Shown here piece by piece: positions 7,243-18,669 of a DNA stretch of 21,456 bases. The number at the start of each line of letters is the position of its first letter. Position 1 is the stretch's first letter. The translations under genes were made by a program, and so were the position numbers. The stretch covers positions 1 to 21,456 of IMG/VR virus record IMGVR_UViG_3300006735_000316. The stretch is one strand, 5' to 3'. The notes beneath the pieces are model-generated. The model ran no database searches. It was not told where the DNA came from and saw only the letters and a program-made list of their open reading frames with translations. The stretch is from a virus.

Positions 7243-8232
7243 ATGTCGTACATCGACGTGAAGTACATCCAAATGGTATCACCTCGTCTGACCCTCTTCA
7301 CTAAGAAGAAGGCAGACCTTTTTAATTTTAGGTGTCCTTATTGTGGCGACTCACAGAAGAGGAAGAACAAAGCACGTGGTTACTTGTTCAAGATCAAGAA
7401 TGATTTTGTGTACAAGTGCCACAATTGTGGTGTAGGCAGAACACTTTCAAACTTTCTTAAGGATCAAGATACGATGCTTCATGACCAATTTGTCATGGAA
7501 AAATTCAGACAAGGAACGACTGGTAAGGCTACCACTACACCCAACCCTAAATTCAATTTTAAGGCTCCAGTTTTCCGTAAAAATAATATCAATTTAGAGA
7601 AGATTTCTGATCTAAATACATCACATCCTGCAAGAAAGTATCTAGAAGATAGAGGCATAAAAGTCCTTGACCTGTTCTACTATTGTCCTAAGTTTAAGGC
7701 TTGGACTAACGAACAGAAGAGGACTTTTGATAGTCTTAGGGGTGATGATGCGAGGATCATCATTCCATTCAAAGATAAAGATGGAAGTTTGTTTGGATAT
7801 CAAGGCAGATCTCTAGCCAAGACGGCTAAGTTACGATACATCACGGTCATGCTTGATGAAGACAAACCAAAAATCTATGGATTGGATAGAATAGAAGAAG
7901 ATAAACCCATTTATATTACTGAGGGACCATTCGATGCTACGTTTATTAAAAACTCGGTTGCTATGGCTGGGTCCGATATTGATTGTCGGACGTTTGGTTG
8001 GAGCGATCATATTTATGTTTATGATAACGAACCACGTAACAGAGAAATCGTCAAGCGAATCTCAAACTGTATTGACAGAGGAGGTAAGGTAGTAATTTGG
8101 CCTAAGAATATACAGCAAAAGGACATAAACGATATGTATCTTGCTGGACATAACGTGCAAAGCGTGGTAGAATCTAGTTCTTATTCAGGATTGGAAGCAA
8201 CTCTTAAACTAAACGATTGGAAAAAAGTATGA
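7243..8232 (+). CDS. 61: DNA primase, T4 gp61 type
   Basis: A 329-residue primase, close to the 342 residues of T4 gp61, that makes RNA primers for lagging-strand synthesis together with the gp41 helicase. The N-terminal zinc ribbon has CPYC at residues 31-34 and CHNC at 59-62. The TOPRIM part shows ITEGPFDA (Glu227), the strand YVYDNE with Asp261, and DINDM at 294-298. GYQGRSL at 185-191 is also typical of phage primases. The ATG at 7243 gives a conserved-looking N-terminus; another ATG at 7239 is out of frame. It is the first gene after the sigma-70 promoter, and its stop overlaps the nrdA start as ATGA. Confidence 0.93.
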   Translation: MSYIDVKYIQMVSPRLTLFTKKKADLFNFRCPYCGDSQKRKNKARGYLFKIKNDFVYKCHNCGVGRTLSNFLKDQDTMLHDQFVMEKFRQGTTGKATTTPNPKFNFKAPVFRKNNINLEKISDLNTSHPARKYLEDRGIKVLDLFYYCPKFKAWTNEQKRTFDSLRGDDARIIIPFKDKDGSLFGYQGRSLAKTAKLRYITVMLDEDKPKIYGLDRIEEDKPIYITEGPFDATFIKNSVAMAGSDIDCRTFGWSDHIYVYDNEPRNREIVKRISNCIDRGGKVVIWPKNIQQKDINDMYLAGHNVQSVVESSSYSGLEATLKLNDWKKV

Positions 8233-10544
8233 GCAACGGAATCAATGTAGTAAAACGAGACGGAGAAGTGACACCTCTAGACCTTGACAAAATTCATAAG
8301 GTGGTAGAGGATGCCTGTGAAGGTCTTGGTAGTGGTGTGAGTGCATCCCAAGTTGAGATGAACTCAGGTCTACAGTTTTATGATGGTGTTAAAACCTCAG
8401 ATATCCAAGAAATTCTCATCAGGTCAGCGAGTGATTTGATTGACCTAGAACATTACAACTATCAATACGTAGCAGCACGTTTGCTTTTATACTCATTGTA
8501 TAAACAGGTACATGGACCACTGTGGACTGAATCACATCCACATGTTAAAAAACAGATCAAAGAAAGTATTGCAAAAGGTGTCTACGATAAAGACATTGTA
8601 TCTAAATATACAGATGAAGAGTGGGAAACAATTAACTCATGGATCGATCACGACCGTGACTTATTGTTTACCTACGCTGGTCTTCGACAAGTTGTAGATA
8701 AGTATCTTGTACAGGATAGAAGTACTAATGAGGTCTATGAGACACCTCAATACATGTACATGATGATTGCTGCTACCTTGTTTCAAAACTATTCCCACGA
8801 TACAAGACTGAATTATGTCAGAAACTACTACGACGCAATCTCCAAACACAAAATCAACATCCCAACGCCCATTATGGCAGGTGTCAGAACACCCATACGT
8901 CAATTTGCATCTTGTGTTCTGGTTGATTCTGATGACACCCTCGATAGTATCTTTAGCTCTGATATGGCTATTGGGAAATACGTTGCACAAAGGGCTGGTA
9001 TCGGTATTAACGCTGGAAGAATCAGAGGAATCAACTCTCGAATCAGAGGTGGAGAGGTTCAGCACACAGGTGTTGTACCCTTCCTTAAGAAATTTGAGTC
9101 TACTGTCAGGTGTTGTACACAAAACGGTATCAGAGGCGGGTCCGCAACTGTTCACTTTCCTATCTGGCATCAAGAAATCCAAGACATCCTCGTCCTCAAA
9201 AACAACAAAGGAACCGAAGACAACCGAGTCAGAAAGTTAGACTATAGTATACAACTATCTAAATTATTTTATGAAAGATTTATTACAAGTGAGGACATCA
9301 GTTTATTTTCTCCTCATGATGTTCCTGGTCTATATGATGCTTTCGGAACTGATGGTTTTGACGAACTTTACAGACAGTACGAGTCAGACCAGACCATCCC
9401 TAGAAAGACTGTTGCTGCCCAAGAATTAATACTTGATCTCTTAAAGGAGAGAGCAGAGACAGGACGTATCTATATCATGAATATAGATCACTGCAATGAT
9501 CACTCATCATTTAAAGACAAGGTAACTATGAGTAATCTCTGTCAAGAGATCACTCTACCTACTAAACCAGTTCAACACATTGATGATCCAGAAGGAGAGA
9601 TTGCACTGTGTATTTTATCTGCTATCAATGTAGGTAAACTACGTACCCTAGAAGAGATGGAAGAACTCTGTGACCTTGCTGTGCGAGGTCTGGAGGAGTT
9701 GATTGACTATCAGCATTATCCAGTAGAGGCAGCACGAAAGAGCACCCTTGCAAGGCGTTCTCTAGGTGTTGGATTCATTGGACTAGCACACTATCTTGCT
9801 AAGAATGGTGTGAAGTATGACGATCCTGCTGCATTACAGTTAGTTCATGATCTAACTGAGTCATTCCAATACTACTTACTCAAGGCATCTAATCAGATAG
9901 CAAAAGAGAAGGGAGCATGTACTGGGTTTGAAAGGACTAAGTATGCTGATGGTATTTTACCTATAGATACTTACAAGAAGGATGTAGATGAACTGGTTTC
10001 AAACAAACTCAACTGTGATTGGAAAGGACTTAGAGAATCCATTGCTATGCATGGACTTAGGCACTCCACCTTATCAGCACAGATGCCAAGTGAAAGTAGT
10101 TCAGTTGTGTCAAACGCAACCAATGGAATCGAACCACCAAGAGATTATCTCTCGGTCAAGAAGTCTAAGAAAGGACCACTTAAACAAGTTGTTCCTCAAG
10201 TTGCAACCCTTAAGAACAATTATACGTTGCTTTGGGATATGCCTAGCAATACTGGGTATATTAATATTGTTGCAGTTATGCAGAAGTTCTTTGATCAAGC
10301 AATTTCTGGAAACTGGTCTTATAATCCAGAGCATTTCGAAAATTCTGAAGTACCTACTTCGGTAATGGCACAAGACCTTCTTACCACATACAAATATGGT
10401 TGGAAGACTTCTTACTATCAGAATACATATGATTCCAAGAGTGATGATGAACCAACAGAAGAAAAAGAAAAACAAACCGTGTCTAATTTACTAGACGATA
10501 TTTTTGCAAACCAAGAGAGCGAGTGTGATGCCTGTGCCATCTAA
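8229..10544 (+). CDS. nrdA: Ribonucleotide reductase class Ia, alpha subunit
   Basis: A 771-residue large subunit that reduces ribonucleoside diphosphates to deoxynucleotides with a radical generated in NrdB. Counting from the ATG at 8229, an ATP-cone-like domain covers about residues 5-95. Active-site residues fall almost on E. coli positions: Cys229, Asn436-x-Cys438-x-Glu440 (SNLCQE) and Cys461. The radical-path tyrosines are Tyr729-Tyr730 in YYQNTY. The C-terminal swinging pair is C766-x-x-C769 (ECDACAI), shorter in spacing than the E. coli pair, and would be re-reduced by the glutaredoxin at 15178. The frame extends 12 bases upstream to another ATG, but the ATGA overlap and N-terminus favour 8229. 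It adds to host deoxynucleotide supply during phage replication. Confidence 0.97.
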   Translation: MSNGINVVKRDGEVTPLDLDKIHKVVEDACEGLGSGVSASQVEMNSGLQFYDGVKTSDIQEILIRSASDLIDLEHYNYQYVAARLLLYSLYKQVHGPLWTESHPHVKKQIKESIAKGVYDKDIVSKYTDEEWETINSWIDHDRDLLFTYAGLRQVVDKYLVQDRSTNEVYETPQYMYMMIAATLFQNYSHDTRLNYVRNYYDAISKHKINIPTPIMAGVRTPIRQFASCVLVDSDDTLDSIFSSDMAIGKYVAQRAGIGINAGRIRGINSRIRGGEVQHTGVVPFLKKFESTVRCCTQNGIRGGSATVHFPIWHQEIQDILVLKNNKGTEDNRVRKLDYSIQLSKLFYERFITSEDISLFSPHDVPGLYDAFGTDGFDELYRQYESDQTIPRKTVAAQELILDLLKERAETGRIYIMNIDHCNDHSSFKDKVTMSNLCQEITLPTKPVQHIDDPEGEIALCILSAINVGKLRTLEEMEELCDLAVRGLEELIDYQHYPVEAARKSTLARRSLGVGFIGLAHYLAKNGVKYDDPAALQLVHDLTESFQYYLLKASNQIAKEKGACTGFERTKYADGILPIDTYKKDVDELVSNKLNCDWKGLRESIAMHGLRHSTLSAQMPSESSSVVSNATNGIEPPRDYLSVKKSKKGPLKQVVPQVATLKNNYTLLWDMPSNTGYINIVAVMQKFFDQAISGNWSYNPEHFENSEVPTSVMAQDLLTTYKYGWKTSYYQNTYDSKSDDEPTEEKEKQTVSNLLDDIFANQESECDACAI

Positions 10545-10554
10545 GATAAAAGGA

Positions 10555-11685
10555 ATGACCGTCTTCAATTTACAGAAGAACGATACCACCAAAGGACAGA
10601 TGTTCTTTGGTCCTCCACTAGGAGTTCAGCGATATGATAAGTTTAAGTATCCTATCTTTGATAAGTTAACACAGACACAGTTAGGTTTCTTTTGGAGACC
10701 TGAAGAGGTGTCATTGCAGAAGGATAGGGCAGACTATCCCACGTTGAATGAAGCACAGAAACATATTTTTACTAGTAACCTCAAGTACCAGATCCTCTTG
10801 GACTCTGTACAAGGTCGTGCTCCTGGTATGGCTTTCGCTCCATACTGCTCTTTACCTGAGCTCGAAGGTTGCATGAATATATGGCAGACTATGGAGATGA
10901 TTCATAGTAGATCATATACTCACATCATTAAGAATGTATACTCAGATCCATCGGAGGTCTTTGATACTATACTAGATGATGAAAAGATTATTGCACGTGC
11001 TAACTCAGTTACTAAAGCATACGATGAGTTCATCAATTATGCACAGGAGTATGGTCAGAGTAATGCTTGGAAGGATGACATGAGAGATCATCCTAATTCT
11101 GAATGGACATTAAAAGATTTAAAACGTAAACTTTATAGGGCTGTAGCAAATGTGTACATACTGGAGGGTGTTCGCTTTTACGTATCTTTCGCTTGTAGTT
11201 TCGCTTTTGGTGAACTTAAGCTACTCGAAGGGAGTGCTAAGATTATATCCCTCATCGCCAGAGATGAATCACAACACATGGCAGTCACGAACAATATATT
11301 AAACAAGTGGAAGGAAGGTGACGATCCAGATATGATAGAAATTGCTAAGGAAGAAAAGGAAAATGTCTATGAGATGTTCAGGAATTGTGTAGCAGAAGAG
11401 AAAGAATGGGCAGAGTATTTGTTTAAGGATGGTTCAATCATTGGATTGAATGACAAACTTCTACAGAACTATGTTGAGTGGACTGCTAACCGTAGACTAA
11501 AGTCTATGGGTCTCAAAGCAATCTTTGATATTCCTTTGGCAAACAATCCATTGCCATGGACGGCACATTGGTTATCCTCTAAGGGTATGCAGGTTGCACC
11601 ACAAGAAACAGAAGTCGAGAGTTATGTTGTGGGTAGCATTAAACAAGACGTTAAGAAAGATACATTTGCTGGTTTTAAATTATGA
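10555..11685 (+). CDS. nrdB: Ribonucleotide reductase class Ia, beta subunit
   Basis: A 376-residue small subunit carrying the di-iron centre and tyrosyl radical. With the ATG at 10555, the ligands align almost residue for residue with E. coli NrdB: Asp83, Glu114, His117, radical Tyr121 (EMIHSRSY), Glu204, Glu238 and His241 (RDESQH). This near identity in numbering is the reason for preferring 10555 over in-frame ATGs at 10504 and 10528, which lie inside the end of nrdA. The ten-base gap after nrdA and the ATGA overlap with the next gene place it in one operon. The C-terminus (TFAGFKL) is the tail that would dock onto NrdA. Confidence 0.95.
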   Translation: MTVFNLQKNDTTKGQMFFGPPLGVQRYDKFKYPIFDKLTQTQLGFFWRPEEVSLQKDRADYPTLNEAQKHIFTSNLKYQILLDSVQGRAPGMAFAPYCSLPELEGCMNIWQTMEMIHSRSYTHIIKNVYSDPSEVFDTILDDEKIIARANSVTKAYDEFINYAQEYGQSNAWKDDMRDHPNSEWTLKDLKRKLYRAVANVYILEGVRFYVSFACSFAFGELKLLEGSAKIISLIARDESQHMAVTNNILNKWKEGDDPDMIEIAKEEKENVYEMFRNCVAEEKEWAEYLFKDGSIIGLNDKLLQNYVEWTANRRLKSMGLKAIFDIPLANNPLPWTAHWLSSKGMQVAPQETEVESYVVGSIKQDVKKDTFAGFKL

Positions 11686-12455
11686 ATAATGTAGTAGTTA
11701 CAACAGATCAATCTCGTCCTGGACAGGAGCAAGAAGAATTCCAGAAGGGTGACGATGTAAGAATGTTGAAACTAAGAAATGAAGCTGGTTGGATTGGTTA
11801 TGACTTTGAGAATCCACCTATATTTTCAGAGTTTGCACCTGAGTGGAAGTATACTATAGGTCAAAAGAAAATAGATATAGACCTTGAAGTATTAACAGAA
11901 CTCTTATTAAAGAAAGAGATAGAACTTGTTAATAAATATCCTGCTGCCAGTGATGGTAGTACTATGTTGGGACCAAAGAGTGTCACTTCTAGATTCCAAT
12001 ACTTTAATGTTATGGATAAGGAGACATGGGATTATGATATCATACATCAAATTCGCAAAGAGATTAAGAAGTTTCATAAACAATATGTGTTGAGTATTTT
12101 TGGATCAGAACATAGAGTCCCTCGTACTCGTATCAGATGTTGGTTCAACGTCATGAGGAAGGGTCAGAAGATCCAAAAACATTATCATTCTGCACATGGA
12201 TACACGTACATTGGAGGTCACATCACAGTTAAGTGTGGTGATAGTTCTACGATATATGTCAATCCATATGAACATGATAAACCATTTCAATTAAAGAACG
12301 AAGCAGGTAGTATAACTCTGTTTCCTAATTACATACCACATTACACAACAAGACATAATACAGATGAACCTAGAATAACTATGGCGTTTGATCTTACCTT
12401 GTTAAATAATGTAGTGCAGTTTGATACAGATCAAAAACAACTACCAATACTATGA
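11682..12455 (+). CDS. Putative 2OG-Fe(II) oxygenase-like protein
   Basis: A 257-residue protein with a C-terminal double-stranded beta-helix. The region WFNVMRKGQKIQKHYHSAHG (residues 154-173) followed by YTYIGGHITV and then LFPNYIPHYTT (213-223) and EPRITMAFDL (229-238) matches the layout of the small phage 2OG-Fe(II) oxygenases: likely iron ligands His167/His169 and His220, and Arg231 for the 2OG carboxylate. Such enzymes hydroxylate proteins, nucleotides or small molecules; the substrate is unknown. Residues 1-90 form an N-terminal extension of unknown role. It directly follows nrdB by ATGA overlap, so it is made along with ribonucleotide reductase. A catalytically altered cupin-like protein is the main alternative. 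Confidence 0.78.
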   Translation: MNNVVVTTDQSRPGQEQEEFQKGDDVRMLKLRNEAGWIGYDFENPPIFSEFAPEWKYTIGQKKIDIDLEVLTELLLKKEIELVNKYPAASDGSTMLGPKSVTSRFQYFNVMDKETWDYDIIHQIRKEIKKFHKQYVLSIFGSEHRVPRTRIRCWFNVMRKGQKIQKHYHSAHGYTYIGGHITVKCGDSSTIYVNPYEHDKPFQLKNEAGSITLFPNYIPHYTTRHNTDEPRITMAFDLTLLNNVVQFDTDQKQLPIL

Positions 12456-12784
12456 CTAATGAAGAGAAGAAGGATTGTACAGATCAATACTTTGAATGTG
12501 CTAGTGAGTGTGATATCAACGATAAAGAATGTGAAGACGCATGTGTTGAAGATCTTAAGGAATGTGATGTTCCAGATTGGAGAGAGGAATACAAAGGATA
12601 TACTTCCAGTAAGTATGAGTTAGATCTCCTAGAAAATGGACCTAAGAGTTTGTCTCAGTCATGGATGATGGGTGCATTACATAACAAGTGGAAGAAGATT
12701 AGAGGGATCAAGGATCCTGAACCACCAGATGTATCATCATCAATGAAAGAATGGGAAGAAAGCATTAAAAAATATGAACTATGA
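12452..12784 (+). CDS. Small Cys-periodic acidic protein (110 aa)
   Basis: A 110-residue protein starting by ATGA overlap. Residues 9-38 contain six cysteines in the exact spacing C-x6-C-x3-C-x6-C-x3-C-x6-C (C9, C16, C20, C27, C31, C38), a 7/4 alternation that places them along one or two faces of a helix. The intervening residues are mostly Asp, Glu, Lys and Gln. The rest (residues 40-110) is hydrophilic with Trp-rich patches (PDWREEY, SQSWMMG, NKWKK, KEWEES). No known family was recognised. The pattern could form a helical hairpin with disulfides or bind metal; its place between an oxygenase and Ycf35-related genes in an iron- and redox-dependent block may be relevant. The next gene again begins by ATGA overlap. 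Confidence 0.75.
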   Translation: MTNEEKKDCTDQYFECASECDINDKECEDACVEDLKECDVPDWREEYKGYTSSKYELDLLENGPKSLSQSWMMGALHNKWKKIRGIKDPEPPDVSSSMKEWEESIKKYEL

Positions 12785-12996
12785 CTAATAACGAAACAAT
12801 TAAATTTACCATCAGACAAGATGGTACTGTGCTTGAAGAAGTTAGTGGTGTCGTTGGCAATAATTGTCAAGAGATAACTAAATCTATAGAGGAGAAATTG
12901 GGTAACGTTATATACGTAGAACCTAAACCAGAATACTATCAACAAGAAAATGTCACACTTCAGCACAATCAAAACCAAAATCAAGAACAAACCTGA
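12781..12996 (+). CDS. DUF2997-family protein
   Basis: A 71-residue protein. The core IKFTIRQDGTVLEEVSGVVG, then CQEITKSIEEKLGNV, and PEYYQQ is the pattern I know from DUF2997 proteins of cyanobacteria: two beta-strands, a helix containing the conserved Cys29, and a tail. In cyanobacteria the DUF2997 gene is commonly next to a DUF1257 (Ycf35) gene, exactly as here, so the pair was probably taken together from a cyanobacterial host. Function is unknown. Its last 47 bases overlap the ycf35 start in another frame, and the Gln/Asn-rich end (HNQNQNQEQT) is probably a by-product of that overlap. Confidence 0.85.
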   Translation: MTNNETIKFTIRQDGTVLEEVSGVVGNNCQEITKSIEEKLGNVIYVEPKPEYYQQENVTLQHNQNQNQEQT

Positions 12997-13330
12997 GCTT
13001 CTAGAAGCATTAGAACTTCTTAAGTATGATGTTACTGAGAATGTTAAGTTAGAAAATCCTTTTGATCATGAGCATAAGCAATGGGAGGTTGATATTGCTG
13101 TTGGTGACGACATTGGTTTTCGTCGTAACAAACAGGGTGAGTATGAACTTGTTACAGATCTTCAAACTTGGAAGCAACCTATTCCACCTAAGAGATTCAT
13201 CGAAAAGGTTACTCAACAGTATGCTAGGATGACTGTGTATAATACAGTTAGGGACTTAGGTTTTCAGGTTCAGGAAGAGTGGGAGATGGATGATAATAGT
13301 TTAGAACTTACAGTTACACGTTGGGTTTGA
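12950..13330 (+). CDS. ycf35: Ycf35-like protein (DUF1257)
   Basis: A 126-residue protein beginning MSHFSTIKTKIK, the signature start of Ycf35/DUF1257 proteins encoded in cyanobacterial and red-algal plastid genomes and in T4-like cyanophages. The family core VDIAVGDDIGFRR and the YARMTVYNTVRDLGF helix are visible, followed by a charged C-terminal strand (LELTVTRWV). Its role is not established, although plastid ycf genes are often linked to photosynthesis or gene expression. It overlaps DUF2997 by 47 bases out of frame. Presence of this pair supports a cyanobacterial host. The gene ends at 13330 and is followed by a 72-base gap with a possible promoter. Confidence 0.88.
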   Translation: MSHFSTIKTKIKNKPELLEALELLKYDVTENVKLENPFDHEHKQWEVDIAVGDDIGFRRNKQGEYELVTDLQTWKQPIPPKRFIEKVTQQYARMTVYNTVRDLGFQVQEEWEMDDNSLELTVTRWV

Positions 13331-13335
13331 GAATC

Positions 13336-13364
13336 TAAACATACCATAAAGTATCATATATAAT
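13336..13364 (+). promoter_or_regulatory. Possible sigma-70 promoter in the 72-base gap after ycf35
   Basis: TAAACA at 13336-13341 (four of six matches to TTGACA), a 17-base spacer and a perfect TATAAT at 13359-13364. Transcription would start near 13371 and run into the coiled-coil peptide gene and on to talC. This is the largest gap in the replication block, which favours a real promoter. Confidence 0.45.
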
Positions 13365-13402
13365 ATGCGTGGCCTTTTTGTACAAGGGTTACAAATCACC
13401 CA

Positions 13403-13585
13403 ATGGATTGGGATTGCGAGATAAGAAACGAATCACTGGAGCATATGTTAACAGTCTACCAAGATCACATCGAGGAACTAGAAGCAGAAGCAAAAGAAAT
13501 GCAGGAAGAGATATTCTTTCTGAAGCAACAACTTGAGTATAAAACTCTAGGTCTTCCGACAGGGGATATAAATACTGAGGAATAG
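13403..13585 (+). CDS. Short coiled-coil peptide (60 aa)
   Basis: A 60-residue acidic protein, nearly all helix: residues 11-47 show heptad spacing of Leu/Met/Ile (LEHMLTVYQDHIEELEAEAKEM and so on), predicting a coiled coil, then a short GLPTGD tail. Small proteins of this type (starting MDWD) are, to my recollection, common in T4-like cyanophages without assigned function. There is no good ribosome site; the start codon lies in a short GC-rich inverted repeat (CCCAA at 13399-13403, TTGGG at 13408-13412). A late promoter-like box overlaps its end. Confidence 0.65.
   Translation: MDWDCEIRNESLEHMLTVYQDHIEELEAEAKEMQEEIFFLKQQLEYKTLGLPTGDINTEE
13567..13574 (+). promoter_or_regulatory. T4-type late promoter-like box before the GIY-YIG gene
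   Basis: A perfect TATAAATA lies in the end of the coiled-coil peptide gene, 15 and 23 bases before the two candidate starts at 13589 and 13597. With T4 spacing the transcript would start near 13580, at the very end of the ribosome site GAGG (13577-13580), so translation from such a transcript would be nearly leaderless. That lowers confidence. Confidence 0.35.
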
Positions 13586-13588
13586 ATA

Positions 13589-13951
13589 ATGGTATTGTGG
13601 AAAAGAATAGTCAAACTTCGGAAGGAAGTTATGAGAACTCCTGGACCTATAAGGGTTCAACTTTTACTTCTGACGACATTGACGATAAGTTCGGTTTTGT
13701 CTACAGGATTACTAATCTACAAACTGGCAAGCAGTACATCGGACGCAAATATTTCTGGTCAAAACGTAAGCCTAGAGGTGGAAAGAGAAGGGTTACGTCT
13801 GAGAGTGACTGGAAAAAATACTATGGAAGTTCTGACGAACTTAAAGCAGATAGAAAATTACTTGGGAACGAATGCTTCAAGAGAGAGATCCTCTCACTCC
13901 ACTCCACACCAGGACGTACCAACTACGCAGAGACCAAGCAACTCTTTATAA
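13589..13951 (+). CDS. Candidate overprinted membrane protein, overlapping the GIY-YIG gene
   Basis: A 120-residue frame lying almost entirely inside the nuclease gene in a different frame. It has the better start signals: ATG at 13589 with GAGG at 13577-13580, eight bases upstream. The protein has a basic N-terminus (WKRIVKLRKEVMR, residues 4-16) and then one clear membrane helix at about residues 23-47 (VQLLLLTTLTISSVLSTG and onward), which would put the N-terminus inside. The rest is hydrophilic. An open frame of this length with good start and a plausible membrane topology is more than I expect by chance, but no homologue was recognised and it may be a shadow of the nuclease. Confidence 0.4.
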   Translation: MVLWKRIVKLRKEVMRTPGPIRVQLLLLTTLTISSVLSTGLLIYKLASSTSDANISGQNVSLEVEREGLRLRVTGKNTMEVLTNLKQIENYLGTNASRERSSHSTPHQDVPTTQRPSNSL

Positions 13952-14055
13952 ACAATGTGTTGCAAGAAACTCTGGATGATGGCACACCAAAGTATTACAA
14001 CAGTAACATCTTAGGACGTTACTATAAGAAAGATTATTTTAAAGAAGAAGAATGA
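13597..14055 (+). CDS. GIY-YIG family endonuclease
   Basis: A 152-residue nuclease-like protein. Residues 31-52 (KFGFVYRITN and GKQYIGRKYF) are the GIY and YIG strands, with Tyr36, Tyr47 and Arg50 as probable catalytic residues. Glu112 (NYAETKQLF) and Asn135 (YYNSN) fit the later metal-binding Glu and Asn. T4-like cyanophages commonly carry this protein, often called a Seg-like homing endonuclease; since it is compact and within an operon, a DNA-repair or host-DNA role is also possible. The only usable start in frame is GTG at 13597, with the ribosome site 16 bases away, so translation may depend on the overlapping frame at 13589. The stop overlaps the next start as ATGA. Confidence 0.85.
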   Translation: MEKNSQTSEGSYENSWTYKGSTFTSDDIDDKFGFVYRITNLQTGKQYIGRKYFWSKRKPRGGKRRVTSESDWKKYYGSSDELKADRKLLGNECFKREILSLHSTPGRTNYAETKQLFINNVLQETLDDGTPKYYNSNILGRYYKKDYFKEEE

Positions 14056-14303
14056 TAGGCGTAAAGTGTTTGGCTTGTGGTGAGGAATTGCGAGTTCGTG
14101 CAGGAAGGTTTAGCTGCTGTGGGTGTGGTAACATGACATCTCTTCATGGAGATACTGTGTCTGCAAATAACATGTCTCAAGTAGAATTGTTACAAAGTAA
14201 TAAGATTGTTAAGAAAGGTTCACTTTTCTCTTCAGATGAGTTAAAATATCAAGAGGCTCGCCGTAATAGGAAAGTCCGTAAAATGACCTTTGAAGAAAAA
14301 TGA
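14052..14303 (+). CDS. Small zinc-ribbon protein
   Basis: An 83-residue protein. CLAC at residues 6-9 and CCGC at 22-25 form a short zinc ribbon near the N-terminus, followed by a hydrophilic, basic C-terminal half (YQEARRNRKVRK). Zinc ribbons of this size often mediate nucleic-acid or protein contacts, but none of the known phage transcription factors is recognisable. It is joined by ATGA overlaps to the GIY-YIG gene before it and to the next gene. Confidence 0.75.
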   Translation: MIGVKCLACGEELRVRAGRFSCCGCGNMTSLHGDTVSANNMSQVELLQSNKIVKKGSLFSSDELKYQEARRNRKVRKMTFEEK

Positions 14304-14518
14304 TTAACCTAGACGAAAAATTTGGATCTTACATTAATAGTAGTAAGGGTTTCAAAATTGATGGTGTTAAGGAAGCAGTCACAGGATATGGTTATCATTG
14401 TGATGGTTCGGACATTATTGGGTACTGGGTTAACACAATAAACTATAAACTATACTATAATATGAACGAGCAGTTCTTAAAATTAGAACCCTTGAGGTCA
14501 CACAGTAAATTAAAATGA
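14300..14518 (+). CDS. Hypothetical protein (72 aa)
   Basis: A 72-residue protein rich in Tyr, Gly and Asn with no recognisable motif. Residues 24-58 alternate polar and aromatic residues (VTGYGYHCDGSDIIGYWVNTINYKLYYN), suggesting a small beta-sheet domain. It starts and ends by ATGA overlap, and the last four bases are shared with the talC start, so it is probably co-translated with talC. No function can be given. Confidence 0.7.
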   Translation: MINLDEKFGSYINSSKGFKIDGVKEAVTGYGYHCDGSDIIGYWVNTINYKLYYNMNEQFLKLEPLRSHSKLK

Positions 14519-15168
14519 AAATCTTTTTAGACACCGCAGAGGTGGGTCAAATCATTGATGGGTATAAGACAGGTTTGATTGATGGTGTAACTACTAATCC
14601 TACCCTTATACTCAGATCAGGCAGACAGCAGAGCGATGTAATAGAGGAGATCTTTGAAGCATGTCCTAACCTTGAGTCTATATCTGCTGAGGTAGTTGCT
14701 AATACTGCTGAAGAGATGGTAGAACAAGCACAACCTTACATTGATCTTAGTAGTAATGTTACGATCAAAGTACCTTGCACACGTGAGGGATTGAAAGCAT
14801 GCTATGAATTGAGTAACGATGATGTGCTTACTAATGTAACTCTAGTGTTCTCTGTAGCACAAGCAATCCTTGCTGCTAAAGCAGGTGCAACTTATGTTTC
14901 ACCATTCGTAGGAAGAGTGGATGACAATTCATTTGGTGGTCTTTGTTTGGTAAAAGATATCGCTAATACATATAAGATGCACAGCGTAGAGACACAAATT
15001 CTTGCTGCTTCTATTAGAAACGTCAGGGATGTAGGTAGAGCATTTGAGTATGGTGCAAACGTATGTACCTTACCCGTTAAAGTGTTCGACAAGATGTATG
15101 ATCACATCTTAACAGAGAAAGGTTTAGAACTTTTCGATAAAGATTACGCTGCTGCTTGTAAATCCTAA
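14515..15168 (+). CDS. talC: Transaldolase, short TalC type
   Basis: A 217-residue TalC/fructose-6-phosphate aldolase-type transaldolase. It starts MKIFLDTAEV, contains DGVTTNPTL at residues 23-31, and has the Schiff-base lysine Lys85 in NVTIKVPCTREGL. VSPFVGRVDD is the conserved strand before the last active-site elements. It moves a three-carbon unit between sugar phosphates in the non-oxidative pentose phosphate pathway. Cyanophage talC is a well-known host-metabolism gene, thought to push carbon flow toward NADPH and ribose for nucleotide synthesis, which fits its place in the same block as nrdAB and glutaredoxin. The length is typical of cyanophage TalC. Confidence 0.95.
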   Translation: MKIFLDTAEVGQIIDGYKTGLIDGVTTNPTLILRSGRQQSDVIEEIFEACPNLESISAEVVANTAEEMVEQAQPYIDLSSNVTIKVPCTREGLKACYELSNDDVLTNVTLVFSVAQAILAAKAGATYVSPFVGRVDDNSFGGLCLVKDIANTYKMHSVETQILAASIRNVRDVGRAFEYGANVCTLPVKVFDKMYDHILTEKGLELFDKDYAAACKS

Positions 15169-15177
15169 TACAAGTCT

Positions 15178-15435
15178 ATGATCTTTACAATCTATTCCAA
15201 ACCAGGCTGTCCTTACTGTGAAAAGTTTGTGGCAGTCTGTGAGTTAGAAGACCTTAAACATGTGGTATATAAACTAGATGATGACTTTACGAAGACTCAA
15301 TTTGAGATGGAGTTTGGTGGTGATGCTAAGTTTCCACAAGTTGTACTAGATATAGGCAGTGAGCGACTTCACTTAGGTGGATGTCGTGATTCTATTGAGT
15401 ACATGCAAAAAGAGAACATTTGTTGTGTGGTATAA
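15178..15435 (+). CDS. nrdC: Glutaredoxin
   Basis: An 85-residue glutaredoxin with the active site CPYC at residues 11-14, the cis-proline strand KFPQVV around residue 60, and the glutathione-binding LGGCRDSIEYM near residues 66-76. It would pass electrons from glutathione to NrdA and to other disulfides; its place nine bases after talC, in the nrd block, supports that role. The extra cysteines at the end (ENICCVV) are unusual. The symbol follows T4 usage. No strong ribosome site precedes it. Confidence 0.93.
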   Translation: MIFTIYSKPGCPYCEKFVAVCELEDLKHVVYKLDDDFTKTQFEMEFGGDAKFPQVVLDIGSERLHLGGCRDSIEYMQKENICCVV

Positions 15436-15439
15436 AGCT

Positions 15440-15598
15440 ATGATTGAAATTACAGAAGATGAATGGCAAGCTGATCTTGACAAGTGGCAAGAAAAGGCTG
15501 AGAAAGGTGAAGTGGTCTTGATAAAAAAACCAGATGGTGCTAAAATACTTATGGTCCCACAAGATCCATCAGACCTGTCGGGTCTGTGTGACATTTAA
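15440..15598 (+). CDS. Small Phd/YefM-antitoxin-like protein (52 aa)
   Basis: A 52-residue protein starting at the ATG four bases after the glutaredoxin stop; the frame extends further upstream but only through glutaredoxin sequence. WQADLDKWQEKAEKGEVVLIKKPDGAKILMVPQ resembles the helix-strand-strand core of Phd/YefM antitoxins (…EAGEEVIITRRGKPVARLVP…), but lacks their usual length and no toxin gene lies beside it. I recall short relatives with this MIEITEDE start in T4-like cyanophages. It may be an orphan antitoxin-like DNA-binding protein that blocks a host toxin, or a small regulator. A 6-bp GC-rich stem (CAGACC/GGTCTG, 15570-15586) lies near its end. Confidence 0.7.
   Translation: MIEITEDEWQADLDKWQEKAEKGEVVLIKKPDGAKILMVPQDPSDLSGLCDI
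15570..15586 (+). other. Short GC-rich stem-loop at the end of the Phd-like gene
   Basis: CAGACC (15570-15575), loop TGTCG, GGTCTG (15581-15586). The 6-bp stem lies just upstream of the strongest ribosome site in the area (15603-15610). There is no T-run after it, so it is not a terminator; an RNA-processing or stability element is possible. Confidence 0.35.
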
Positions 15599-15617
15599 CC
15601 CTAAAGGAGATACTATT

Positions 15618-16013
15618 ATGTCAAACGTTAGAACACATTTGCTTCGAGCAAAGGAAGAGGTTAGACTAGGATTGATTGGTGCGTTAGATGAGCAACAGGA
15701 AGTAGAACTAATTTCAGAACTAGTATCAATCTATACTAGTTTAACTGAAAAGTTGAAGGTAGTGACTGTAAACTTTGGTGGGAATGATGATGTAGTGGAG
15801 TTTGGTGGTCATCTATATGATGTCCCTACTCAGTATAACTTCAATCTTGAAAGTAATGTTGACCTGAATACAGGTCTATTCAAAGATGATACAATTCAAT
15901 TTGTTGATACATCTTTAGGTGATGTTGATATTAAGATTGATACATCCAACCATCCAGATTATGTAACCACTAGTGGTGGTATTAAATTGAGTACAGATGA
16001 AAATCCCGCCTAA
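15618..16013 (+). CDS. Hypothetical protein (131 aa) with strong ribosome site
   Basis: The frame is longer, but AAAGGAGA at 15603-15610 sits eight bases before the ATG at 15618 and the sequence before it shows no protein character, so I take 15618. The 131-residue product has a helical N-terminal half (residues 1-50: LLRAKEEVRLGLIGALDEQQEVELISELVSIYTSL) and a Gly/Asp/Asn-rich beta half (residues 60-131). No family was recognised. The last 17 bases overlap the next gene in another frame. Confidence 0.72.
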   Translation: MSNVRTHLLRAKEEVRLGLIGALDEQQEVELISELVSIYTSLTEKLKVVTVNFGGNDDVVEFGGHLYDVPTQYNFNLESNVDLNTGLFKDDTIQFVDTSLGDVDIKIDTSNHPDYVTTSGGIKLSTDENPA

Positions 16014-16596
16014 CGGATACGAAAGTTCATATCCTCTTCCAGATAACTGTATGTTTATGATGCCTTACTTTAGGTATCATGTAGAAGAGTGGCAAGATCG
16101 GAAGGAAGAAATTCTTTCCGATCTTTTTTCGTACCATGAAAAAGTATTGAAGACAGACCCTGCTGAGTTGAATGACACATGTCATACAACCTTCTATGAG
16201 AAGACAGAGTTCGCAGAATTTAAACCATTCATTGATATACTTGGTCCATATCTACAGAGACTGAGTGTTGAAGCATTGGAAAGGGGTTTCTATAGAAAAC
16301 CTATTGATAATATTAAAGGGATATGGTTCCAAGTACAGGAACAGTATGAGTTTCATTCAATGCATAATCATGGTCCTGAGGGATGGTCTGCTGTATTCTA
16401 TGCAGACTATGACCATGAAGTACATGAAGCAACAAAGTTTTATTCAAGTATGTTCACATGTCATGGAGAGATTATAACATTCCAACCAGGATGTAGTGAA
16501 GGTGATTTGATTGTGTTCCCATCACAAGTTTTCCATGAGTCACCAGTCACCAAGAGCGAGAAACCTAGAACGATTATATCATTGAACATGACATGA
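15997..16596 (+). CDS. 2OG-Fe(II) oxygenase family protein
   Basis: A 199-residue protein with the small phage-type 2OG-Fe(II) oxygenase fold (2OG-FeII_Oxy_5-like). HSMHNHGPEGWSAVFYAD (residues 120-137) holds the first metal ligands (probably His123 and His125), and LIVFPSQVFHESPV (171-184) supplies His180. Arg191 in EKPRTIISLN is the probable 2-oxoglutarate anchor. The N-terminal 100 residues are helical. Substrate is unknown; in cyanophages such enzymes are numerous. The gene carries a strong intrinsic terminator inside its codons 33-45, so much of the transcription passing through may end there. It is the last gene of the block before the late tail-fibre promoter. Confidence 0.87.
   Translation: MKIPPNGYESSYPLPDNCMFMMPYFRYHVEEWQDRKEEILSDLFSYHEKVLKTDPAELNDTCHTTFYEKTEFAEFKPFIDILGPYLQRLSVEALERGFYRKPIDNIKGIWFQVQEQYEFHSMHNHGPEGWSAVFYADYDHEVHEATKFYSSMFTCHGEIITFQPGCSEGDLIVFPSQVFHESPVTKSEKPRTIISLNMT
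16094..16129 (+). terminator. Intrinsic terminator inside the 2OG oxygenase coding sequence
   Basis: The left arm at 16094-16107 (AAGATCGGAAGGAA) pairs with the right arm at 16112-16125 over 14 bp, with one G-U pair, closed by a GAAA tetraloop (16108-16111) and ending in six T (16124-16129). This is a complete rho-independent terminator reading on the + strand, with no comparable T-run on the other strand. It lies about 100 bases into the coding sequence, not after a gene. Confidence 0.85.
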
Positions 16597-16604
16597 CCTA
16601 AATA
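16597..16604 (+). promoter_or_regulatory. Late promoter-like box for the tail-fibre gene
   Basis: CCTAAATA in the 45-base gap before the tail-fibre gene, one mismatch from the cyanophage late box NATAAATA. With T4 spacing, transcription would start near 16610, within the hairpin's 5' arm. It is the only promoter-like sequence in the gap. Confidence 0.5.
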
Positions 16605-16643
16605 CTTCTAGCTTAGAAAAAGTGTCTTCAGGACTAGAAGTAT
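16602..16643 (+). promoter_or_regulatory. Start-codon hairpin of the tail-fibre gene, overlapped by the late promoter start
   Basis: ATACTTCTAG at 16602-16611 is perfectly complementary to CTAGAAGTAT at 16634-16643. The 22-base loop contains the ribosome site AGGA (16630-16633), and the stem pairs the first two bases of the start codon at 16642. Read-through transcripts would fold this; a transcript begun near 16610 would lack eight of the ten 5' arm bases. Confidence 0.65.
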
Positions 16644-18669
16644 GTCAAAACTCTTAGCGAACCAAATCGCAAATTATAATGATAACGGACCTGTAGAAGC
16701 GAAAGAAGGACTGAACCTTCCTACAGGAAAGCCACTCCAATTAAATGGTATTGTTGGTACATCAGGTCAGTACCTGACTACTGATGGTACGTCATTACAA
16801 TGGACTACCTTACCTACAATCCCTGCTGCACAGATTCAGGTTGATTGGAATGAGGTTGTCTCTAGTGAAGTTGATTATATTAAAAACAAACCATCACTAT
16901 CGGCAGTTGCACTGAGTGGTAACTACGTAGATCTTATTAACAAACCTAGCATTCCTGCTGATCAGGTACAGTCTGACTGGAACGTAGGTACACCAAGTGA
17001 TGTAGCATTTATTAAAAACAAACCAGCGTTTGCACCTGTTGCTACTACTGGTGCTTATACAGACTTAACTGGAAAACCTACCATACCAACAACACTAGGT
17101 GATTTTGGTATAGGTGCTCAAGATATTAACTTTGGTTCATATAGAATAACATATTCAAATGTGTATTCTACACTGACTGACCTACAAGCAGTTAGTGCTA
17201 GTACATATCATGGTATGTTTGCTCATGTTCATTCAACTGGTAGTGGATACTTTGCACATGCTGGAGGATGGGTTGAACTATTAGATGTAAACAAATCTAT
17301 TAGTAACCTTGCTGACGTATACACAACTGGTGTTACTGATGGTCAGGTATTAAAGTGGGATGCTGCAAATAATAGATGGTCTCCTGCGGATGATGATAAC
17401 TCTGGTGGAGGAGGTGGAGGAGGAGGATCCAGTACATTTGCAGGTTTAACTGATACACCTGCTAACTTTACTGGTGCTGCTAGTAAAAATGTAGTAGTTA
17501 ATTCTGCTGGTAATGCTCTTGAGTTTGTTGACTCAGGTACTAGTAGTAATGAAATTCTTCCAGTAGCATACGCTAAAGTTAATCAGGATACTGCTGGCAG
17601 TGGTACTGGTATGTCATGGGGTGCATATAGTAGTAGTCAAGGTGATATGGTATTCACATTTGACACGCCTTTATCTGATGCAGACTATTATGTACTAGCA
17701 GAAAGAGAACAGTATGATACTCACACTGTAAGTATTCTCAGTAAGACCACTACAGGATTCACTGCAAGATGGTTAGATAATGCAGGAACAGGTGCATTAG
17801 CACCTAGTACATTTGGTGGTGTTCTTATAGTATATGCTTCAACACCTACAAGAAGTGTTGGTGCTGGATGGAACGAAGCATTACCTGTTGCAACAGCAAC
17901 TGTTCTTGGTGGTGTTAAAGTTGGATCTGGTTTATCAATAACTGGTGCTGGTGTTCTTTCTGCATCTGGTGGTGGAGGAGGTGCTACAGCATTAGATGGA
18001 CTAACTGATGTTACTATCTCTAACGTACAAGTAAATGAAGTATTAAAATATGATGGATCTGAGTGGACTAACCAAGCAGATGCTACTGGTGGTGGCGGTG
18101 CTGGTGTTACCGATGGAGACAAAGGTGACATAGTTGTATCATCCAGTGGACAAACTTGGTTGATAGATGCTGGTGTTGTTGATACAGATGAATTAGCAGA
18201 CACAGCAGTCACTGCTGGATCATATGACAATGCATCTATCACAGTAGATGCTAAGGGTAGAGTTACTGCTGCTTCTGCTGGATCTGGATTGGTCTCAAGA
18301 GCAACAGACTCTGTTACATTCAACTCTCTTGCTGCTGGTGCTGCTGTTAATGGTACTCTTGCATTAGGTAAGTCATATAGTTTATTGAAGATTGAAACTA
18401 GTCATGCTGCATGGGTAACAATCTATATCGATGCTGCATCTAGGACTAATGATTCCACGAGAAACATACAGACTGACCCTTTACCAGGTGCAGGTGTAAT
18501 TGCTGAGATAGTTACGACTGGAGATACAATACAAAATATTACTCCAGCAGTTGTTGGTTGGAATAATGATAGTACTCCTGGTACGACTGCTTATTTGAAG
18601 GTAGTTAACATGGATGCTGGTACACAGAACGTAGTTGTTACGGCAACATTTATAATTCTAGAGAAGTAA
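16642..18669 (+). CDS. Tail-fibre-like virion protein
   Basis: A 675-residue repetitive virion protein with AGGA eight bases before its start. After an N-terminal segment (MSKLLANQIANYNDNGPVEA) come two copies of a fibre repeat about 44 residues apart, at residues 64-101 and 109-146 (Q-x-DWN...IKNKP...Y-x-DL-x-x-KP), typical of phage tail fibres. Residues 170-216 contain TYHGMFAHVHSTGSGYFAHAGGW, a module I recall from several cyanophage fibres. Two copies of L-x-DV...VLKxD...W-x-x-AD lie at 223-250 and 455-480; a run of Gly at 255-262 acts as linker. DKGDIVVSSSGQTW and VDAKGRVTAAS (493-545) are common shaft elements. The unique C-terminal domain (553-675) is the best candidate for host receptor contact. 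Late expression is supported by the promoter and hairpin upstream. Confidence 0.88.
   Translation: MSKLLANQIANYNDNGPVEAKEGLNLPTGKPLQLNGIVGTSGQYLTTDGTSLQWTTLPTIPAAQIQVDWNEVVSSEVDYIKNKPSLSAVALSGNYVDLINKPSIPADQVQSDWNVGTPSDVAFIKNKPAFAPVATTGAYTDLTGKPTIPTTLGDFGIGAQDINFGSYRITYSNVYSTLTDLQAVSASTYHGMFAHVHSTGSGYFAHAGGWVELLDVNKSISNLADVYTTGVTDGQVLKWDAANNRWSPADDDNSGGGGGGGGSSTFAGLTDTPANFTGAASKNVVVNSAGNALEFVDSGTSSNEILPVAYAKVNQDTAGSGTGMSWGAYSSSQGDMVFTFDTPLSDADYYVLAEREQYDTHTVSILSKTTTGFTARWLDNAGTGALAPSTFGGVLIVYASTPTRSVGAGWNEALPVATATVLGGVKVGSGLSITGAGVLSASGGGGGATALDGLTDVTISNVQVNEVLKYDGSEWTNQADATGGGGAGVTDGDKGDIVVSSSGQTWLIDAGVVDTDELADTAVTAGSYDNASITVDAKGRVTAASAGSGLVSRATDSVTFNSLAAGAAVNGTLALGKSYSLLKIETSHAAWVTIYIDAASRTNDSTRNIQTDPLPGAGVIAEIVTTGDTIQNITPAVVGWNNDSTPGTTAYLKVVNMDAGTQNVVVTATFIILEK

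Follow-up and report, generated by a model that had tools for sequence, protein, structure and literature searches.

In many marine cyanobacterial viruses, a hairpin over the start of a tail-fibre gene probably blocks production of the fibre from early read-through RNA. We describe the arrangement in a 21,456-base IMG/VR virus record, IMGVR_UViG_3300006735_000316, analysed over its whole length (the window), the gene content of which is that of a T4-like cyanophage. Read-through RNA from the metabolic and replication genes upstream would hold both arms of the hairpin and fold into a 10–13 bp stem which, judging from folding, would bury the Shine-Dalgarno sequence and part of the AUG, so that ribosomes would be unable to start. 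RNA made from the late box would, by T4 geometry, begin at about A16610 and thus be without nearly all of the 5′ arm; the stem would then be unable to form and the fibre would be made. We think it likely that the leader is a cis-acting RNA switch, in which translation of the tail fibre is set by the promoter that made the message. All parts of this reading, which likens the leader to that of T4 gene e, hold where they can be tested computationally and support the mechanism; we infer the existence of the read-through RNA, the late start at 16610 and the importance of the repression. A literature search for transcriptomes that give start sites returned none for a phage with this tail-fibre gene. 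Possible reasons for keeping the fibre off early are economy, the order of assembly or the insulation of a transferable module.

The 45 bases that separate the stop codon of a 2OG-Fe(II) oxygenase gene from the tail-fibre ATG contain a late box, an inverted repeat and an AGGA (Table 1). The box follows directly on the TGA of the oxygenase gene (16594–16596), and the arms are 100% complementary over 10 bp with a spacer of 22 nt. The initial annotation had reported this box, the perfect 10-bp hairpin and a partly paired tail-fibre start codon, with coordinates that are all correct, and the box-hairpin-ATG arrangement is real. It had also placed the ribosome site free in the loop, which is wrong: in the predicted fold the stem extends inward past the 10-bp arms and so pairs the AGG of the Shine-Dalgarno sequence with CUU (C16612–G16632, U16613–G16631 and U16614–A16630), the first two of these pairs being kept in 80–81 of 89 leaders. 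Folding of the 101-nt region gives −21.9 kcal/mol (z = −3.7), a stability equalled by one of 200 shuffles. Of 702 ORFs of at least 100 aa, taken from the window and four related genomes, 6 carry a perfect 10-bp inverted repeat that ends at the start codon, two of the six being the tail-fibre leader itself in two phages, and 0.00 occurrences of the box-hairpin-ATG pattern are expected in shuffles of the window. A search of Rfam returned no family at the gathering score, its sole sub-threshold match lying elsewhere (16062–16129, E = 1.9).

Table 1. Features of the tail-fibre leader and its gene neighbourhood in the window.
Feature	Position	Strand	Basis
Primase	7243–8232	+	ORF, Pfam/PHROGs
nrdA	8217–10544	+	ORF, Pfam/PHROGs
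nrdB	10504–11685	+	ORF, Pfam/PHROGs
2OG oxygenase, listed between nrdB and talC		+	ORF, Pfam/PHROGs
talC	14515–15168	+	ORF, Pfam/PHROGs
Glutaredoxin	15178–15435	+	ORF, Pfam/PHROGs
Second 2OG-Fe(II) oxygenase	15997–16596	+	ORF, Pfam/PHROGs
Upstream same-strand block, primase to 2OG oxygenase	7243–16596	+	Presumed source of read-through RNA
T4-type late promoter box CCTAAATA (NCTAAATA form of NATAAATA)	16597–16604	+	Sequence
Hairpin 5′ arm ATACTTCTAG, sharing 3 bases with the end of the late box	16602–16611	+	Inverted repeat, fold
Predicted late transcript start (A/G), six bases past the box	16610–16611	+	T4 geometry
CUU pairing with Shine-Dalgarno AGG (inner stem extension)	16612–16614	+	MFE structure
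Shine-Dalgarno AGGA, 8 nt 5′ of the ATG	16630–16633	+	Sequence
Hairpin 3′ arm CTAGAAGTAT, taking in the AT of the start codon	16634–16643	+	Inverted repeat, fold
Tail-fibre ATG	16642–16644	+	Sequence
Tail-fibre gene, 675 aa, N-terminus MSKLLANQIANYNDN	16642–18669	+	PHROG 9729 tail fiber protein, E = 7e-66
Subtilase-domain gene, 849 aa	18671–21220	+	PF00082, E = 3e-21; PHROG 9158

Upstream of the tail-fibre gene lies the nrd-talC block that had been claimed for it, with primase, nrdA, nrdB and talC all on the same strand. A late gene here follows early/middle genes on one strand, as it does in cultured relatives with a similar order, the temporal classes being assigned by homology. The tail-fibre annotation is present in most of the cultured relatives. 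The gene for the 849-aa subtilisin-like protease begins 2 nt past the tail-fibre stop codon and presumably shares the late message with the tail fibre.

Late genes of phage S-PM2 use NATAAATA (PMC2984593), a motif from which the box of the window, CCTAAATA, deviates. In the window and four related genomes, the region 18–62 nt ahead of ORF starts holds 99 sense against 5 antisense occurrences of [A/C]TAAATA (61 against 1 for ATAAATA and 38 against 4 for CTAAATA). With both forms strongly biased in strand, CTAAATA behaves as a late box of that same class. Most relatives carry TATAAATA, AATAAATA or CATAAATA at the box position, and a TAAATA box stands at the matching distance in all leaders extracted. 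In T4 the late box occupies −13 to −6, and applying this spacing to the box in the window gives a predicted +1 at A16610. The T4-type box reaches by 3 bases into the DNA encoding the 5′ strand of the hairpin, with the predicted +1 inside the arm; a TAG at this point is conserved in nearly all relatives. The idea that the 5′ arm is an extended late-promoter consensus was rejected, CTTCTAG following 0 of 89 other strong boxes.

RNAs with varied 5′ ends were folded to position 16680 and the unpaired value was taken over the ribosome site (−14 to +3). For most 5′ ends between 16000 and 16590 it was 0.08–0.10 (0.18–0.21 for 16300), and it stood at 0.14 for a 5′ end at 16597, 0.15 at 16602, 0.41 at 16608, 0.55 at 16609 and 0.57 at 16610, remaining flat beyond. 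Thus 5′ ends upstream of about 16602 are predicted to close the ribosome site and those at 16609 or later to open it, and since the value rises at 16609–16610 and is then flat, the predicted start is very nearly the first position to open the site. Folding at 20 and 25°C gave the same opening trend. The AUG is unpaired with a probability of 0.02–0.09 in read-through RNA versus 0.80 in the predicted late RNA starting at 16610, and the Shine-Dalgarno sequence with 0.28 versus 0.48; a small stem is kept in the predicted late leader, which leaves the Shine-Dalgarno sequence about half paired. The proposal that read-through RNA would be silent and late RNA translated is consistent with these folds, the one leader being predicted closed and the other open, with residual Shine-Dalgarno pairing. 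Among relatives, 85 of 86 leaders are predicted to be more open in the late than in the read-through RNA, and read-through accessibility at tail-fibre leaders is 0.08–0.23 versus a median of 0.52 for 233 box-ATG pairs in five sequences.

Nine cultured Kyanoviridae-type phages (S-CAM4, S-RSM4, S-WAM2, S-H9-1, Sf-CH1b and ACG-2014e/h/i/j) and more than 100 IMG/VR contigs have the box-hairpin-ATG unit at this gene, and each of the 80 pattern hits examined lies ahead of a gene of this tail-fibre family. We found no reuse of the leader at other genes: a covariance model yields a single true copy in each genome, and its sub-threshold hits in S-CAM4, P-SSM2 and T4 are at chance level. At least 9 of the 10 pairs are kept in 134 of 143 distinct sequences of leader plus N-terminus (all 10 in 125, nine in 9). 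Per-site identity is 84% in the arms; the loop has 59%, and fourfold sites in the first codons have 52%. When transitions away from Watson-Crick pairs are counted by parsimony on a tree built from the coding part, 26 kept pairing and 4 broke it, where about 50:50 would be expected without constraint (p ~ 6e-5, sign test). Among the kept transitions, the 5′ arm shows mainly C-to-T changes and the 3′ arm mainly A-to-G; because these directions are opposite, a single mutational bias cannot explain them. There are three two-sided swaps in total, two in the S-MbCM7/ACG-2014h leader L007 (ATATTACTAG / CTAGTAATAT) and one in L235 (ATATTTCTAG / CTAGAAATAT), and a G-U intermediate is present in several phages. 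Re-dealing the arms among the sequences also lowers stability: the natural mean is reached in 8 of 5000 permutations, in a control that ignores relatedness. A column-shuffle covariation score on the full alignment, in which two-sided changes are few, was not above shuffles (344 of 500), partly because a divergent subclade is misaligned by one base, and for this reason the tree-based count was used. Support for the pairing lies in conservation and in changes of the G-U type.

Compensating changes among relatives had been named in the initial annotation as something to look for in a check of the switch, and arms that vary independently as evidence against one. The alignment shows a conserved stem in which changes mostly preserve pairs. 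The arms do not vary independently in most leaders, but one subclade (L035, L036, L040 and copies) has changed its 5′ arm without compensation, keeping the 3′ arm and losing the stem, and in L036 the read-through and late RNAs are predicted to be about equally open. This subclade offers a natural contrast for judging what the switch does. Two relatives of it, L034 and L039, have a partly different pairing, TCTCAG/CTGAGA. That the stem is a functionless product of chance, kept only through conservation of the promoter and the ribosome site, seems to us very improbable: the box and start codon do fix the outer three pairs and formal covariation is weak, but the inner seven pairs lie in otherwise little-constrained spacers, are more conserved than synonymous sites and change in ways that preserve pairing.

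In BLAST comparisons with cultured cyanophages, similarity sets in at base 16599, within the late box, and what lies upstream of the unit varies among relatives, being a 2OG oxygenase gene, a tRNA-Gly, an intrinsic terminator or other genes. Both observations would fit an inverted repeat kept at the DNA level, as the exchange joint of a tail-fibre cassette with its own promoter, RNA folding being incidental. We consider this unlikely as the explanation of the hairpin, since recombination needs identical sequence rather than pairing arms, a cassette boundary needs no arm that buries a ribosome site, and neither the pair-keeping swaps of L007 and L235 nor the 26:4 excess of transitions would be expected from it. 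The exchange joint and the RNA switch are compatible and can both be true. More tentatively, the late box, the RNA switch and the N-terminus of the fibre might form one portable, self-insulating cassette. Because such a cassette would be self-silencing on whatever message runs in from upstream, a host-range module could be inserted behind early genes, tRNAs or terminators and still be expressed late only, which, if true, would help explain the movement of tail-fibre modules among cyanophages.

In several relatives the tRNA-Gly ends a few bases upstream of the unit, so that RNA in the leader region is processed there. The hairpin could then be an element of RNA processing or stability (for example a place where RNase cuts read-through RNA, or an operator bound by a protein) rather than a block to early translation. 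A structured leader of this kind is described for S-PM2 psbA, where the relevant passages report a late box motif with an inverted repeat in the 5′ leader and propose that the hairpin affects mRNA stability under light (PMC5931967); unlike the tail-fibre leader, it is given no promoter-in-arm arrangement in those passages. We regard a processing element as improbable here, as the stem covers exactly the Shine-Dalgarno sequence and the AUG, the predicted late start truncates it precisely, and it is kept where no tRNA is near (the window, L031, L173). The position of the hairpin at the end of the upstream transcription block would also suit an attenuator or terminator of the upstream message. 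This we judge highly unlikely, and it was rejected: neither arm is followed by a T run on either strand, the hairpin is absent from the terminator scan, and where relatives do have a terminator, it is a distinct one located upstream of the box. Such an intrinsic terminator lies just upstream of the box in 21 of 80 relatives, where it should already limit read-through. Weaker stems behind a terminator or tRNA were looked for and the idea was rejected; mean stem energies were −14.1 kcal/mol with a terminator, −14.1 with other contexts and −11.7 in the tRNA group, which includes the stem-less subclade. A terminator therefore makes no difference to stem strength, the first two means being equal. 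Inside the 2OG oxygenase gene of the window, at 16094–16125, we note a terminator-like 14-bp hairpin with a T run (−20.2 kcal/mol, z = −3.7). Its stem is kept almost letter for letter in L011–L019, L021, L023, L024 and L028 while the gene diverges, and the T run is not conserved in those relatives. It is possibly an intragenic element and could limit read-through.

The preferred reading, a translational switch, has precedents in T4. As a control, the box-hairpin scan was run on T4. It picks out gene e (box at 67031, start of the gene at 66997), segB (71948; 71918) and I-TevI (144462; 144431; leader AATAAATACTTCTA...), and so finds the known class of switch. The scan also picks an unannotated 157-codon ORF (box 46892), the size of which fits gene 49 and which enters our comparison only as this match. 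T4 soc codes for a capsid structural protein and, like the cyanophage tail-fibre gene, encodes a part of the virion, a likeness by description. Both soc and gene 49 have been grouped with e and I-TevI as having sequestered ribosome sites (PMC3014915). Long early transcripts of gene e form a hairpin over the ribosome site, and late boxes in the DNA of its 5′ strand give a late RNA without that strand, which is well translated (PMC3014915). The cyanophage leader shares the ribosome-site hairpin and a late box in the 5′-strand DNA. It differs in having one box rather than two late promoters, in serving a tail fibre rather than lysis, and in its host and unrelated leader sequence; moreover structural work on its RNA and mapping of its transcripts have established the gene e switch, whereas the cyanophage leader is known from its sequence. 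In T4 I-TevI and segB and in Aeh1 mobE the late promoter is again placed so that late RNA is without the inhibitory stem, and the T4 genes so controlled are late genes on long early/middle messages (PMC2988022). The context of the cyanophage tail fibre, a late gene after early/middle genes, fits this rule. Unlike these three, which are mobile homing endonuclease genes, the cyanophage gene encodes a tail fibre, and its arms continue past the box, pairing with the spacer that follows the Shine-Dalgarno sequence. The cyanophage model gives a weak, chance-level match exactly on the T4 I-TevI leader (144427–144466), TAAATACTTCTA being common to both.

The T4-type switch of late promoter and ribosome-site hairpin is known in T4 e, soc, 49, I-TevI and segB and in Aeh1 mobE, and apparently is new for cyanophages and for a tail-fibre gene. 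A 2010 review mentions syn9, S-PM2, P-SSM2 and P-SSM4 only as being without gene e (PMC3014915), and our search of openly accessible papers turned up no cyanophage switch of this type. The leader would bring a textbook timing device of T4 to cyanophages and to a tail-fibre gene, and early read-through RNA in cyanophage transcriptomes need not imply early fibre protein. The element is small and testable, and is conserved in the cultured phages S-RSM4, S-CAM4 and S-WAM2.

Other leaders drew our attention. In Syn9 (NC_008296, 110911–110960) the arms TCCTAGA/TCTAGGA, downstream of a late box, cover the AGGAG of the tail-sheath gene, gene 18; this leader is a further candidate for such a switch, in a phage that lacks this tail fibre. 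A late box with a partly complementary leader occurs at the prohead scaffolding gene of S-CAM4 (KU686200, 119583) and S-RSM4 (70491). This leader is predicted to be closed in S-CAM4 and more weakly so in the similar leader of S-RSM4; its structure is therefore not clearly conserved. Finally, a recurrent TCTAAATA box lies 20–21 nt 5′ of an ATG with a strong Shine-Dalgarno sequence in S-RSM4 (44481), S-CAM4 (145619), ACG-2014h (139306) and the genome G001 (196407), the leaders being similar among several phages.
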